Shown here piece by piece: positions 4,214-10,922 of a DNA stretch of 64,000 nucleotides; within the stretch, counting starts at the first letter, position 1; every line of letters starts with the position of its first letter. A program made the position numbers and the translations under genes. Location of the stretch: positions 62,001 to 126,000 of the forward strand of contig JANYCU010000051.1 of NCBI GenBank assembly GCA_025360125.1, written 5' to 3'. Below the pieces are notes generated by a model. The model was not told the origin of the DNA, did no database searches, and saw nothing but the letters and a program-made list of their open reading frames with translations. The DNA comes from Armatimonadota bacterium (lineage in GTDB: Bacteria > Armatimonadota > Fimbriimonadia > Fimbriimonadales > Fimbriimonadaceae).

Positions 4214-5734
4214 CTACTCAAGCTCGATCGTTGCGGGCGGTTTACTGGTTAAATCATAAAACACTCGGTTCACGCCGTCAACCTCATTCACGATTCGACT
4301 TGCAACTAGCTCAAGCACGTCAAAAGGAATGTTCACTGCTCGTGCGGTCATTGCGTCCTCACTTTCGACTGCTCTCAACACAATCGGTTGCTCGTATGTC
4401 CGTTCATCACCCATGACGCCGACGCTTTTCACGTCTAGAAGGGCCGCGTAGGACTGCCAAATTCCTCGATTCAGCCCCCTTGATCGCAATTCTGATCGGA
4501 AGATCCAATCGGCATCCTGAACCATCTTCACCCGCTCAGGGGTTACCTCGCCAAGAATTCTGACGCCGAGACCAGGACCAGGGAACGGTTCTCTGTCCAC
4601 CATGTCTTCAGGCAAGCCTAACGCTCGACCAACAGCTCGAACTTCATCCTTGAACAGCCATCGTAGTGGTTCGATCAGCTTCATCCGCATCCAATCGGGC
4701 AGGCCACCGACGTTGTGGTGGGTCTTGATTTTGGCGGCAGTTGGCGAGCCGGATTCAATAACGTCGGGATAGAGGGTGCCTTGGGCGAGCCAGTCGCATC
4801 CTTTAAGTTCGTTCGCATGGTCTTCGAACACCTGGACAAAATTTGCCCCAATCGACTTTCGCTTCGATTCCGGATCTTTGACTCCTTTCAGGCTGCCGAA
4901 GAATCGATCATGTTCGTGGAAGGCAATAAGGTTGCCCTGAAAATGGGTTCCAAAGGTGTCAATGACCTGAGCGGCTTCGCCTTTTCGGAGGAGGCCGTGA
5001 TCAACAAAAACGCAGATTGCCCGTTCGCCAATTGCTTTTATTAGGAGGGCGGCCATGACGGAAGAATCGACTCCGCCAGAGACGGCGCAAAGAACCTTTT
5101 CATTTTCGCCAACTGTGGCCCGAATTTTTTTGATTTCTTCTTCGATGAAGTTTTCGGTGCTCCAGTCTCCCTTCAATCCGGCGACTTGGAGGAAAGCTTC
5201 GATAATCTTTCTTCCATCGGGAGTGTGGGTTACCTCTGGGTGAAATTGAATTCCGTAATATTGACGGGAAACGTCCTCCATTCCCGCAATCGGGCAACTA
5301 TCGGTTGTCGCGGTGATGGTAAAGCCAGCCGGAACCTCGGTGACCTGCGTTCCGTGCGACATCCACACCTGGCCATTGGTCATGGCATGAGTCAAGCCGT
5401 GATGCATCGTCAAGGTTCGTTGGCCATATTCCTTGTGGTCCGCGCCTTCGACTTTGCCGCCCAGTTTGTACGCCATCAGTTGTTGGCCATAGCAAATGCC
5501 AAGGGTGGGAATTCCTTCCAGGCATGTGAAGTCGAGCGTTGGAGAATCAGCATCGAAGACCGATTTTGGCCCACCGCTGAGAATCACTGCGGTGGGCTTT
5601 TCGGTTTGAATCCGTTGGAAGGCTTCCGTCCAAGGCACCATTTCCGAATAAACGTTTTGCTCTCGGACGCGGCGTACAATTAGCTGAGTATATTGTCCGC
5701 CGAAATCGACGACCAGGACTTTTTGATGGGTCAT
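4214..5734 (-). CDS. guaA: GMP synthase (glutamine-hydrolysing)
   Basis: A 506-residue enzyme that aminates XMP to GMP with ATP and glutamine, the last step of GMP synthesis. The N-terminal class I glutamine amidotransferase carries VVDFGGQYTQLIVRRVRE, the nucleophile motif LGICYGQQ (Cys near residue 83) and the catalytic His-Glu in FHPEVTHT. The ATP pyrophosphatase domain has the P-loop-like AVSGGVDSSVMA (about 218-229). The C-terminal dimerisation domain ends in the family tail FYDLTSKPPATIELE. Complete and of normal length. It follows a pseudopilin gene by 40 bases and precedes the helical-repeat gene. Confidence 0.97.
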   Translation of the reverse strand: MTHQKVLVVDFGGQYTQLIVRRVREQNVYSEMVPWTEAFQRIQTEKPTAVILSGGPKSVFDADSPTLDFTCLEGIPTLGICYGQQLMAYKLGGKVEGADHKEYGQRTLTMHHGLTHAMTNGQVWMSHGTQVTEVPAGFTITATTDSCPIAGMEDVSRQYYGIQFHPEVTHTPDGRKIIEAFLQVAGLKGDWSTENFIEEEIKKIRATVGENEKVLCAVSGGVDSSVMAALLIKAIGERAICVFVDHGLLRKGEAAQVIDTFGTHFQGNLIAFHEHDRFFGSLKGVKDPESKRKSIGANFVQVFEDHANELKGCDWLAQGTLYPDVIESGSPTAAKIKTHHNVGGLPDWMRMKLIEPLRWLFKDEVRAVGRALGLPEDMVDREPFPGPGLGVRILGEVTPERVKMVQDADWIFRSELRSRGLNRGIWQSYAALLDVKSVGVMGDERTYEQPIVLRAVESEDAMTARAVNIPFDVLELVASRIVNEVDGVNRVFYDLTSKPPATIELE

Positions 5735-5774
5735 AGACCCTATTTAGTTTGACAGATGGTGCACCCGAAATGCC

Positions 5775-6593
5775 TCAGTTTGCCATTCCGTTCCAGAACT
5801 TGTCTTTCGTTTGTGTCGAGGTGCTCTCTCCTACCAACGAATCGATCGAGACAAATTTGGTGTGTCCATCGAGCCAGTTGACGACCACTTTCTTCGGATC
5901 ATATCGGCCCCACAATTGACCTTGAGTTCGAGCATCAATGCCGATTGCATTCGGGTCAGACGACGCAACTGGTAGCCAGAAGCTTGGGGCATCGATTCGG
6001 TGATATCCGACTGCCCGCCGAACAACTGGTTGGCCAGGAGCGATAATATCTTTTCCGGTGGCTTCGGCAAACATAACGGTTTGAGCAGTGTTGCCAAATG
6101 AAGTGGCAGAGACTCCCGCGTAATCTAACGCGCCAAATGGCCCAGCGGTCGCGACATTCAGATATTTTCGGTTGTACCCGTAGCTGGGGTATGCCCCGGT
6201 CAGATACCAATAGGCACAGCCACCCTTATCGAATCGTCCGAAAGTCGGACAGCCGGAGAAGTGCATTGCGGGATCATCGGCTCGATCGGTTGGATCAAGA
6301 AATAACTCCGTACTCTTCGTGTAGTTCTGTAGAAGCACCGGGTAAAAATAAAACCCGTTAGTTGATGGAATTGACAAATCGGCGGGGTTAAACCAACGAA
6401 GTGGAATCGTCACGTCGTCGTAATCATTCATGTAAAGCAATGTTCCAGTTGCAATTTGCTTCATGTTGCTGATGGTCATGGTCTTTTTGGCCGCTAGTTT
6501 CGCCTGGGCAAATACAGGAAACAAAATGGCCGCAAGAATGGCAATAATGGCGATAACAACAAGGAGTTCAATCAAAGTGAACGCACGCTTCAT
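5775..6593 (-). CDS. Prepilin-type pseudopilin (H-X9-DG/DUF1559-like)
   Basis: A 272-residue secreted protein with a type IV prepilin N-terminus: a short basic leader MKRA, then FTLIELLVVIAIIAILAAIL with the conserved Glu at +5. The following FPVFAQAKLAAKKT and SNMKQIATGTLLYMNDYDD are typical of the large pseudopilin family of Armatimonadota and Planctomycetota, and VNWLDGHTKFVS near the C-terminus is the matching H-X-DG-like tail. It is expected to be cleaved by a prepilin peptidase and to sit in, or be secreted by, a type II/IV pilus-like system. No pilus assembly genes are adjacent, so its partners are unknown. Confidence 0.9.
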   Translation of the reverse strand: MKRAFTLIELLVVIAIIAILAAILFPVFAQAKLAAKKTMTISNMKQIATGTLLYMNDYDDVTIPLRWFNPADLSIPSTNGFYFYPVLLQNYTKSTELFLDPTDRADDPAMHFSGCPTFGRFDKGGCAYWYLTGAYPSYGYNRKYLNVATAGPFGALDYAGVSATSFGNTAQTVMFAEATGKDIIAPGQPVVRRAVGYHRIDAPSFWLPVASSDPNAIGIDARTQGQLWGRYDPKKVVVNWLDGHTKFVSIDSLVGESTSTQTKDKFWNGMAN

Positions 6594-7672: not shown

Positions 7673-8536
7673 CTAGTTTCCGCCGCTCTTCACGATGTCG
7701 CCGTGAGTTGACGTGATAACCGTGAAGATTTCCCCTTGCTCTTTCGCCGGAACCATGTACTTATCGAGGACGGACTTGAGGATTCCCGCTGCAGACCCCC
7801 ACTGCTTTTCAGTGATGGCTAAATCCTTGTGGGAATCTTTCATCGACTTCCCGGTGTACTTGAACGGCCCACCAGCGGCCATGGCAAGCTGCTCGGTGAC
7901 CAAGTATTTCAGGCCAGCGCCCGTGATCTTGCCCGACGTCAAAGACTTGACAACGTGCGGGTTTTCCAGCTGAGTTTTATCGGTTGCAAGCATGTTGACG
8001 AAGTCGTCCACTACCATCGAGATCGGCGCAATTCCGCCTAGCCTGGCGTAAAGCGATGTTTGGTCCATAAATTTTTCTTTCTCTGCCATCATGGGCTTTG
8101 CCTTCATGAACATTGCGTTGTACTTAGCTTTGAGTTCCATGAAGTCCTTCTTGCTGACGCCAGCTTTTTGGAATGCCATCCATCGAATGTCCCAAGCATG
8201 GTCGCGATCCTTTCTAGAAAGCATAAAGCCCTGGTCGTACGCTGCGACATCAAAAAATGCGGTTTGAGGGCCACCAGCGATATGGGCCAAGTATGCGGTC
8301 AAACCAAACTTGACCAAGGGTTGCGGGGCACCAGAAACGGCCAACTTAAAGTTGTTGTTCTTCAACAACATCATATCAGCCGACTCCATTTCCACACAGT
8401 TGGATGCACCCTGGGCGATCTTGTAAATGCCGCCGAGGCGCTCATAGAGCGACATCTTCATGTCTTGGGCGGAGCCAATCGCCGCCATTGCCGAAATTGT
8501 TAAGGTGACCATAGCGGTCATGTTTGTTCGCTTCAT
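7673..8536 (-). CDS. Exported tandem truncated haemoglobin (group I type)
   Basis: A 287-residue protein with a signal peptide (TAMVTLTISAMAAIGSAQ, probable cleavage near residue 23) and two truncated-globin units. Unit 2 (about 160-283) is clear: SLYARLGGIAPISMVVDDF, QLAMAAGGPFKYTGKSMKDS, proximal His at about 236 in DSHKDLAITEKQW, then EIFTVITSTHGDIV. Unit 1 (about 28-145) begins SLYERLGGIYKI and has AYLAHIAGGPQTA but is degenerate downstream; His113 in RKDRDHAW is only a candidate haem ligand. The B10 position of unit 2, usually Tyr, appears to be Val (DDFVNML). Truncated globins bind O2 or NO; export and duplication are uncommon. It is followed by a 154-base repeat-rich gap. Confidence 0.82.
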   Translation of the reverse strand: MKRTNMTAMVTLTISAMAAIGSAQDMKMSLYERLGGIYKIAQGASNCVEMESADMMLLKNNNFKLAVSGAPQPLVKFGLTAYLAHIAGGPQTAFFDVAAYDQGFMLSRKDRDHAWDIRWMAFQKAGVSKKDFMELKAKYNAMFMKAKPMMAEKEKFMDQTSLYARLGGIAPISMVVDDFVNMLATDKTQLENPHVVKSLTSGKITGAGLKYLVTEQLAMAAGGPFKYTGKSMKDSHKDLAITEKQWGSAAGILKSVLDKYMVPAKEQGEIFTVITSTHGDIVKSGGN

Positions 8537-8619
8537 TGCAATTCAATGAAACCGCGCCGAGCTTAACGAAATATTTCAGCTTTCTGAATGGCTTATGAAT
8601 ACTTAAGGAAGTTCGTTGT

Positions 8620-9309
8620 TCAATCTTCAAACCCAAATCGATAACCAAAACCCCTTAGGGTGTGAATGGCTTTTCTCCCGCTGGCTCGTTCGAGTTTTGA
8701 CCGAAGGCGATAGACGAATACATCGAGACTGTTTGAATTGAACTCATCGTCATAACCCCAAACCGACTCGAAAAGCTGTTCTCGTTCGAGCACTCGCCCT
8801 GCGTTTACGGCAAAGTAGTGCAACAGGCGAAACTCGAGCGCGGTGAGGGCGATTTTTTGCTCGTCAATCGTAGCTGACCTCTGTTTTAGATCAAGCACAA
8901 GCGGCCCCGACCGAATTTGTTCCGCGTCCGATTCTTCTGGTTTGTATTCGGTCGTTCGTCGTAGACATGCTCGAATTCGCGCCAGGAGCTCTCGTGGTTC
9001 AAATGGTTTGGTCATGTAGTCATCGGCACCTACTTCGAGGCCTATGATTTTGTCGAGCAGGTCGCTACGGCTAGTTAGCATGAGAATGGGGAAAGTCCAC
9101 TTCATGCGAATTCGGCGGCATAGCGACACGCCGTCTTCATCGGGCAAACCAAGGTCTAAGATCAGCAGATCAGGGCACTGTTCGGCGATGTGCGTAAAGC
9201 CATCTTTCGCGTTATTCGCCCCTGTCACGGTGAAATTATTCGCCTCGAGCAGTTGGGTGAGGCTCGAAAGCAAGAATGGATCGTCTTCAACTATTAGTAC
9301 TTGGTTCAT
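8620..9309 (-). CDS. OmpR/PhoB-family response regulator
   Basis: A 229-residue two-component transcription regulator. The receiver domain (1-115) has the acidic pocket VEDD (residues 8-10), phospho-acceptor Asp52 in LLILDLGLPDEDG, Thr/Ser switch in LMLTSRSD, and the conserved Lys101 in DDYMTKPFEPRELLARIRA. The C-terminal winged helix (about 130-226) ends GRKAIHTLRGFGYRFGFED, the usual OmpR-type wing. It is encoded downstream of, and overlaps by 4 bases, its sensor kinase, so the two form one signalling pair. Targets are not evident; the nearest divergent gene is a pseudopilin at 11.1 kb. Confidence 0.95.
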   Translation of the reverse strand: MNQVLIVEDDPFLLSSLTQLLEANNFTVTGANNAKDGFTHIAEQCPDLLILDLGLPDEDGVSLCRRIRMKWTFPILMLTSRSDLLDKIIGLEVGADDYMTKPFEPRELLARIRACLRRTTEYKPEESDAEQIRSGPLVLDLKQRSATIDEQKIALTALEFRLLHYFAVNAGRVLEREQLFESVWGYDDEFNSNSLDVFVYRLRSKLERASGRKAIHTLRGFGYRFGFED

Positions 9310-10922
9310 TTTGCCCTCAGAAAAGTTACTTTCATGGTGGTGCCCTTGCCAGGTTCGCTATTGCATTCAATGGTGCCTTTGTGTTCCATGGCAATTTGTT
9401 TACAGCTGTAGAGTCCTAAGCCAAAACCGTTTGATTTTGTGGTGGCAAAAGGCTGAAAAAGTCGCTCGGTCATCTCTTTAGACATTCCTTCGCCAGTATC
9501 CGTGACTTGGAGAATCACCGATGAATCGGTATTCTCAATGGAAACTCGGACGCTACCCTTTGACCGAACGGCATTGAGCGAGTTGAGAAGGAGGTTGACA
9601 ATGAGGTGCTCCAGTCGACCTTCGTCACCCATCACATAGACTGCATCGGTTGGAACGCTTGATTCTAATTTGACCTTGGATATTTCAAATTGAGCCCCGA
9701 TCAGGCTAAGTACCTTTTCGAGAACACTCGATAAATCGAGATGCTCAAGCACGGCTTGGTGTGGCTTGGCATAACTCAGCAAACGGTGAGCCAACACATT
9801 AAATCGTCCAAGGGAGTCTCCGACGTAAGCAAGGGCCTTCTCCGGCTCATCTGCTCCAAGAGATAATTGGACATTGATCGAAGCCAGAATATTTCGGATG
9901 TCGTGAGCAATCGAGGCCGCCAGCGTTCCCGTAACCGCCAGCTTTTCACTTTGAATGAGCTGGTCTTGGGCCATCTTCAGTTCGACGCTTGTATCTCGTA
10001 GTCCAGTTTCGAGGCGATGAATCCTTGATTCCCGCTCAAGCTCAGTGCTGATTCTCATGGCTAGCACCGACAAAAAGTGAAGATCATCCGCGTCGAGGTC
10101 AACTTCTGACTTCGAGTCAAGAATGCACAACGTGCCGATCGCATGTCCGGAGAGATCAAAGATAGGGACCCCTGCATACCTGGTCAATCCGAGGGAAGCA
10201 GGAAAAAGTTCTTTCGCACTTCCGACCTCACGGGCATCCTGAATGATGACGGGTCCTTGTTCAGCGAGGCAGAATTGACAAAACGAATCGACTACGTAGT
10301 TTCCGGCAACATTGGGAGCGCCATCTGGAACTCCACTTACGGTATGAAAACGAAGAAAGTCATCATCCAAAATGGAAAGCATTGCCATGGAATCGTAATA
10401 TTTAGAGATAGCATCGACAATGACCTTCACCACTTTAGTTGGATCGTGGTCGAAGTGGAGAGCAATCTCACTGAGCGCAGCCTGAAATTTCCGCTTGCTA
10501 GCATCCGCACTAATATCCAGGAAAGTCCATAGACGGGCAATAACTGATTTATCCACATCGTGAACAGGGCCAGAATATCGCCTGAGAACCATGTCTGGAT
10601 TCTTGAGGATTAGTTCATCTTCTTGCTCGGTATTCGTGCTTTCATAGACTTGATCGAGGTTCTTTTGCCAGGATTCCAAGTCAACAATTCGGTGTCTAAC
10701 CATCTTTCGAACTGATTCAACATCGTTGCTGACCACGTCGCGGGTCGGAATGCCAAACAGCTCGCCGAATTTGCCGTTACAGATTAAGGACTGATGATTG
10801 AGGTCAGTCACCAGGACCCCATAGTCCACTGCCCCAAGAACCGCTCGCAGGGAGTGTTCTATTTCGAGCGGAAGGAGGTCCCGCATGCTTAATTGTTCCT
10901 GCCTCTCCGACCGTTTTCCCAC
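9306..10922 (-). CDS. PAS-GAF sensor histidine kinase
   Basis: A 538-residue kinase with no membrane helix, so probably cytoplasmic. Domains: PAS (about 20-140, AVDYGVLVTDLNHQSLICNG), GAF (about 150-297, including CQFCLAEQGPVIIQDAREV and YAGVPIFDLSGHAIGTLCIL), a short coiled coil (300-330), the phosphorylation helix with His340 in SIAHDIRNILASINVQL, and a HATPase (about 395-535) with N box LIVNLLLNSLNAV, G1 VTDTGEGM and G2 FGLGLYSCKQIAMEHKG. The frame opens with GTG at 10922; an ATG at 10886 with a distant AGGA is an alternative. It overlaps the regulator gene by 4 bases. The ligand of the GAF or PAS domain is unknown. Confidence 0.93.
   Translation of the reverse strand: MGKRSERQEQLSMRDLLPLEIEHSLRAVLGAVDYGVLVTDLNHQSLICNGKFGELFGIPTRDVVSNDVESVRKMVRHRIVDLESWQKNLDQVYESTNTEQEDELILKNPDMVLRRYSGPVHDVDKSVIARLWTFLDISADASKRKFQAALSEIALHFDHDPTKVVKVIVDAISKYYDSMAMLSILDDDFLRFHTVSGVPDGAPNVAGNYVVDSFCQFCLAEQGPVIIQDAREVGSAKELFPASLGLTRYAGVPIFDLSGHAIGTLCILDSKSEVDLDADDLHFLSVLAMRISTELERESRIHRLETGLRDTSVELKMAQDQLIQSEKLAVTGTLAASIAHDIRNILASINVQLSLGADEPEKALAYVGDSLGRFNVLAHRLLSYAKPHQAVLEHLDLSSVLEKVLSLIGAQFEISKVKLESSVPTDAVYVMGDEGRLEHLIVNLLLNSLNAVRSKGSVRVSIENTDSSVILQVTDTGEGMSKEMTERLFQPFATTKSNGFGLGLYSCKQIAMEHKGTIECNSEPGKGTTMKVTFLRAK

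Follow-up and report, generated by a model that had tools for sequence, protein, structure and literature searches.

The window, by which we mean the whole 64-kb stretch of DNA analysed here (C25:62001-126000, within a genome of 4.13 Mb), carries on its minus strand a 287-aa reading frame (7673..8536) whose Pfam match and AlphaFold model indicate a truncated globin of two units that is probably exported. Directly upstream of it is the gene for an OmpR/PhoB-type response regulator (8620..9309, minus strand; Pfam Response_reg and Trans_reg_C), the best NCBIfam models for which are MtrA/PhoB, under their cut-offs. This regulator gene shares a 4-bp overlap with a gene that Pfam identifies as encoding a histidine kinase with a GAF domain (9306..10922, minus strand). 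Four 11-bp units (TTCATAAGCCA, TTCAGAAAGCT, GAAATATTTCG and TTAAGCTCGGC) upstream of the globin gene (8556..8599, minus strand) form a candidate response-regulator site.

The first-pass annotation had described a signal peptide and two globin units in one chain, and the features predicted from the reading frame bear this out. Residues 1-23 (8468..8536, minus strand) form a putative signal peptide, likely cut between GSA and QD, as judged from hydrophobicity, AxA-like motifs and low pLDDT; its hydrophobic 12-mer has a mean of 2.0 and two of the first six residues are basic. A hydrophobic leader is found at the N-terminus of all 12 homologues, as are AxA-like cleavage motifs by a rule of our own making rather than SignalP, and such leaders point to a Sec-type export route through the inner membrane. 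Unit 1 spans residues 29-160 (8057..8452, minus strand) and has Asp101 at F8, Cys47 at B9 and 11 methionines. Unit 2 spans residues 161-287 (7676..8056, minus strand) and has His236 at F8, Val180 at B10, Leu209 at E7, Val213 at E11 and Ala249 at G8. The Pfam globin model (Bac_globin) matched unit 2 alone (residues 161-281, 31.9 bits, cut-off 21), and an NCBIfam search of the 287-aa chain gave no match. Unit 1 was recovered in the same reading frame by the family profile (residues 31-137; 33.6 bits in one search, E 1.5e-8 in another). The chain's best matches in a PDB sequence search, over residues 158-282, were the group I truncated haemoglobins of S. benthica and M. tuberculosis.

In the full-length AlphaFold model (mean pLDDT 90.2, pTM 0.85) the sole stretch with pLDDT below 50 is residues 1-22. 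Unit 2 is predicted to adopt a two-over-two globin fold and matched 1s56 (M. tuberculosis HbN; Z 18.3, rmsd 1.6, 122 residues), and unit 1, when modelled alone (pLDDT 89.2, pTM 0.81), is likewise predicted to be a globin, with a match to HbN in entry 5ab8 (Z 14.8, rmsd 2.5, 115 residues). The upper matches of the fold searches were truncated haemoglobins for unit 1 alone, and truncated haemoglobins followed by other globins across the searches, a reading of upper matches that leaves room for folds other than globin. Both units have helices at the A, B, C, E, F, G and H places (our own lettering) and an extra helix before E (residues 61-69 in unit 1 and 193-200 in unit 2). Structure prediction, which the first-pass annotation had proposed as a check, points in a model without haem to the group I truncated-haemoglobin fold in both units, and the pTM of 0.85 suggests that the two have a defined mutual packing.

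When unit 2 was aligned with solved group I proteins, His236 fell at their proximal histidine and Val180 at their B10 residue. F8 of unit 2 is histidine in all 12 two-unit genes, in agreement with the earlier statement that this unit retains the proximal ligand. The G8 position was placed by the residue numbers of HbN. The topological names come from alignment to S. benthica HbN, for which PMC11904497 gives Phe(B10)21, Met(E10)45 and His(F8)69. Unit 2 further carries Gly167-168 after helix A, Gly222-Pro224 after helix E and Asp186 at B16, which together with His236 correspond to the group I feature list of a proximal histidine at F8, GG after helix A, GGP after helix E and Asp at B16 (PMC4720485). 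Val180 does align to B10, as had been noted, but its presence there is not unusual: all 12 two-unit genes have V, I or A at B10 of unit 2, and all 72 close single-unit relatives (71 distinct single-unit proteins and L118) have I or V there together with His at F8, while 18 of 19 distant single-unit relatives have Tyr at B10. We therefore reject the idea that Val-B10 sets this protein apart, such a residue being general in its subfamily.

The remainder of the pocket has the same character, E7 being L or I and E11 being V or L in unit 2 of all 12 genes. Hydrophobic residues at B10, E7, E11 and G8 are the marks of TrHbN-2 (PMC11904497), and Val180, Leu209, Val213 and Ala249 place hydrophobic residues at all four positions. 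By its pocket residues, unit 2 would fall with TrHbN-2 among the group I truncated haemoglobins, and it is apparently able to hold haem. The CD1 residue in TrHbN-2 is Phe and rarely Tyr, and the peroxide reactivity of S. benthica HbN has been tied to a Tyr at CD1 (PMC11904497); this Tyr is not seen at the aligned place in unit 2, which has no aromatic residue there, in a region that is gapped relative to the solved structures. Fast O2 loss has been tied to hydrophobic distal pockets (PMC4720485), and in flavohaemoglobin NO binding is unaffected by TyrB10, which does influence O2 binding and NO scavenging (PMC3820574). From these data and the hydrophobic pocket we infer that unit 2 would be a weak O2 binder yet able to bind NO, and reactivity with NO, CO and peroxide is what the pocket by itself would suggest.

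At the place of unit 2's His236, unit 1 has Asp101 and so lacks a proximal histidine, which upholds the view that unit 1 is degenerate at its haem site. Across the 12 two-unit genes, unit 1 has H at F8 in five (G051a, G051b, G040, G035 and G135), D in G000, G002 and G009, E in G138 and G033, Q in G026 and C in G130. The Phe at B9 of unit 1 has been replaced by C in G033, G000, G002 and G009, by A in two genes and by H in one. In a tree of 57 rows all 12 unit 1s form one group (support 99/94), within which the seven that lack the histidine form one clade (99/96), a pattern that fits a single loss, although the tree program flags long branches of the unit 1s, that of G138 foremost. Ten of the genes have 5-13 methionines in unit 1, while G040 has 4 and G135 has 19; unit 2 has 1-6. 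A Met-rich stretch covers unit 1 and the linker at 8057-8110 and is likewise seen in unit 1 of relatives. Met-rich sequence occurs in some periplasmic proteins that handle copper or oxidants.

If unit 1 were merely decaying toward loss and had no role, its sequence identity would be expected to fall below that of unit 2, as it does in all seven pairs compared, and F8 to vary freely once the histidine had gone, as is also the case. The unit 1 frame is nevertheless open in 12 of 12 genes, and its fold is confidently predicted. Its dN/dS values, where finite, were 0.15, 0.30 and 0.12 (three of seven pairs, the others being saturated), compared with 0.03-0.24 for unit 2 (six of seven pairs, the remaining one being saturated). 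All three pairs that include the window's gene were saturated for unit 1, so that the case for constraint on this copy rests on a pN of 0.27-0.33, well below its pS of 0.77-0.78. New shared residues have also arisen, such as the Cys at B9 in four genomes. Decay without a role is thus improbable in our view, and we prefer to see unit 1 as a domain that has been kept after losing its haem ligand.

To examine distribution, we searched 291 genomes of the phylum with profile A1, built from eight units. Matches at E 0.001 or better occurred in 34 of them, and 12 genes in 11 genomes had two units in one frame. Nine of these genomes belong to family f1 (G000, G002, G009, G026, G033, G035, G130, G135 and G138); the others are G040 (f5) and G051 (f2), the latter with two genes. 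The search for the same layout in related genomes that the first-pass annotation called for thus succeeded, and recurrence in 12 genes is more than chance would give, although detection of two-unit genes is favoured by a profile built from such genes. All 11 of these genomes belong to one order, apparently Fimbriimonadales in Armatimonadota. The two genes of G051 (L023 and L024, on C2 and C3) are 90% identical, lie near contig ends and each precede a similar dehydrogenase-like gene, as in a duplicated segment.

A wider scan with one genome per species kept 80 of 102 confirmed loci, of which seven were two-unit and 73 single-unit (71 distinct proteins). Hosts of the single-unit relatives include Planctomycetota, Verrucomicrobiota, Acidobacteriota, Bacteroidota, Ignavibacteria, Melainabacteria and others. 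A hydrophobicity rule of our own assigned a leader to 15 of the 71 and none to the other 56; since tandem truncated haemoglobins have also been reported, the earlier statement that such globins are normally single-domain and cytoplasmic needs to be softened. Three proteins from Melainabacteria (L034, L035 and L036; 325-359 aa) combine a leader and one unit with a long C-terminal extension. Many leaderless singles (among L037-L093) have an 'AHH' motif before helix E, a possible distal ligand, which is missing from the two-unit family. The genome that holds the window also encodes, outside it, a second, leaderless truncated globin (L001; C25:25366-25701, 89.6 bits) within a 330-aa protein in which, by eye, ankyrin-like repeats seem to follow the globin.

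The neighbourhoods of these genes bear on whether the protein might be a haem carrier, with unit 2 taking up haem and passing it on outside the cytoplasm and unit 1 docking a membrane partner. The leader, a pocket without a ligand-stabilising residue, and a unit 1 that has the fold and not the haem ligand would all suit such a protein. However, inspection by eye of the neighbouring genes listed at the two-unit loci revealed no haem-uptake or haem-export gene, and the neighbourhoods vary beyond one genus; no gene neighbour is common to all 12 loci. At one locus (L138, in G130) the globin gene stands tail to tail with a gene (4567-5886) whose product contains several CxxC(H)-like motifs. A carrier role seems improbable to us as well, and a haem protein under probable two-component control remains our preferred reading.

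Kinase, regulator and globin genes stand in a row in four of the 11 two-unit genomes (G000, G002, G009 and G138, in the last of which about 500 bp separate regulator from globin). The adjacent pair is absent from the other seven, and in G018, G006 and G005 a kinase-regulator pair occurs without the globin. At E 1e-60 or better, homologues of the kinase were found in nine of nine two-unit f1 genomes versus 25 of 76 others (P 1.3e-4, with kinship ignored), the match being partial and in longer frames in five of the nine (G026, G033, G035, G130 and G135). Both the gene row and this association would be expected if the exported globin were a sensor accessory that responds to a gas and signals back to the adjoining pair, but the linkage has a simpler explanation, namely that the pair regulates the globin. 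Moreover, the domains of the kinase are GAF, HisKA and HATPase by Pfam, with no periplasmic domain reported, which leaves little chance of contact between the kinase and an exported globin. We regard a sensory role as highly improbable and return to the globin as a probable target of the pair.

The promoters of the family add to this picture. Direct repeats of the form TTCAT-N6-TTCAG, with an 11-bp period, are present at 11 of the 12 two-unit genes, some 40-80 bp upstream of the start codon, an observation that is new here. Summed over the 12 regions, the best two-unit score was 115 at period 11, compared with 89, 88, 90 and 87 at periods 9, 10, 12 and 13; this contrast between periods is the fairer test because the consensus was drawn from the scored promoters themselves. 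By region, the score was 10 out of 10 in nine, 9 in two and 7 in G040, whose locus lacks the repeat; in G026 the best-scoring place differs from the repeat picked by eye. Random 160-bp windows of the same loci (n=6000) reached 9 in 2.5% of cases and 10 in 0.6%, and within the 64 kb a score of 10 occurred at just two places besides the array. Direct repeats at a helical period thus lie beside an OmpR-type regulator gene at this locus. OmpR/PhoB-family promoter boxes typically consist of 11-bp direct repeats, the Streptomyces PHO box being an example, and we consider it likely from these promoter sequences that the family shares a two-component control switch. The box is also present at loci without an adjacent pair, which suggests an unlinked regulator there. 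In five genomes (G000, G002, G009, G033 and G026) a GGTTTCAT motif lies between repeats and start codon; it is possibly a promoter element or a further, out-of-phase repeat.

Attempts to extend the box to a regulon were unproductive. The bare repeat pattern had 15 matches in its own genome versus 4 for a reversed control, but most of the 15 are inside reading frames, and a three-repeat pattern had 5 matches versus 4 for its control. Another intergenic triple repeat, at C18:13282, precedes a gene for a secreted-looking 396-aa protein, in the first 150 residues of which no Pfam family was found. Upstream of the kinase genes of seven genomes the repeat scores were 9, 7, 8, 7, 10, 7 and 6, indicating patchy presence. 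As for a general phosphate (Pho) box, the genome's own pstS-like gene is a weak match (36 bits, cut-off 205) with a best two-unit score of 7, so the repeats are not evidently such a box.

On this evidence, the reading that we favour, and to which we give about an even chance of being correct, is that of an exported haem protein under two-component regulation, with low O2 affinity and reactivity toward NO, CO or peroxide, in which unit 1 is a haem-less partner domain. A Sec-type leader would send the protein over the inner membrane, where unit 2 would bind haem b via His236. Because its pocket is wholly aliphatic (Val180, Leu209, Val213 and Ala249), unit 2 should bind O2 weakly, with rapid exchange, and it might still bind NO or CO and react with peroxide. 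Unit 1 would stem from a duplication that took place before the families of the order diverged; its haem ligand would have been lost in the clade that holds the window's genome, and it would have been kept as a folded haem-less partner packed on unit 2 with a structural, docking or redox role. The GAF-type kinase and the OmpR-type regulator would switch transcription via the 11-bp direct repeats, and the most likely job would be on-demand defence or buffering of the envelope against NO or oxidants. A role against self-made NO is weakened and the cell's own copper nitrite reductase is not supported as the source, as that enzyme scored above cut-off in one of 291 genomes and in none of the 11 two-unit genomes. 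Hydrophobic B10, E7 and E11 residues would suit O2 transport and storage (PMC11904497), but with fast O2 loss predicted (PMC4720485) and half of the exported protein haem-less, an O2 store or carrier in the envelope is a poor candidate and very doubtful.

A bolder, rather unlikely version of the preferred reading is that, once duplicated in tandem and exported, a haem globin is becoming a non-haem subunit, through a single ligand loss, repurposing of unit 1 and a dedicated two-component switch. The kept residues would then be the Cys at B9 and the Met-rich face and linker of unit 1. If so, unit 1 might be a regulatory, electron-handling or copper-handling partner of unit 2, and the protein a periplasmic pair of one haem globin and one repurposed globin fold.

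Unusual as it is, the window's protein makes sense as one of a known kind, and the parts worth following are its leader, the retained haem-less unit and the promoter box. TrHbN-2, for which some 1500 sequences are mentioned, has been termed little studied (PMC11904497), and leader, constrained haem-less copy and box together give a handle on its natural job. The regulator and its signal can be sought, and G040 and G051, with two apparent haem sites, can be compared with one-site descendants. A search of the open-licence literature found no description of a two-unit or exported globin of such a kind.

Several known systems resemble parts of this locus. The repeats share with OmpR/PhoB promoter boxes a short TTCA-like core that recurs every 11 bp upstream of a start codon. 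Multidomain truncated haemoglobins with tandem globin units have reportedly been described by Hade et al. in 2017, and the likeness, judged by title alone, is that of tandem units in one chain. M. tuberculosis HbN (TrHbN-1; PDB 1idr and 1s56) is similar to unit 2 in fold, with the Z of 18.3 given above, but it holds O2 by TyrB10 and GlnE11 (PMC3493545), both of which are missing in unit 2. S. benthica HbN is a TrHbN-2 that holds haem without Tyr-B10 and is peroxide-reactive (PMC11904497). It is a single-unit protein, in contrast to the window's two-unit protein with a leader, and the portions of PMC11904497 drawn on here do not mention a signal peptide or the periplasm; in the window's protein helices C and E are also further apart in sequence, with the extra helix at 193-200. 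In other respects S. benthica HbN (PDB 8ugz and 7tt9) is a close counterpart: among PDB entries the family profile matches it best, it ties for best fold match of unit 2, and it shares with unit 2 the proximal histidine and the hydrophobic B10, E7, E11 and G8.
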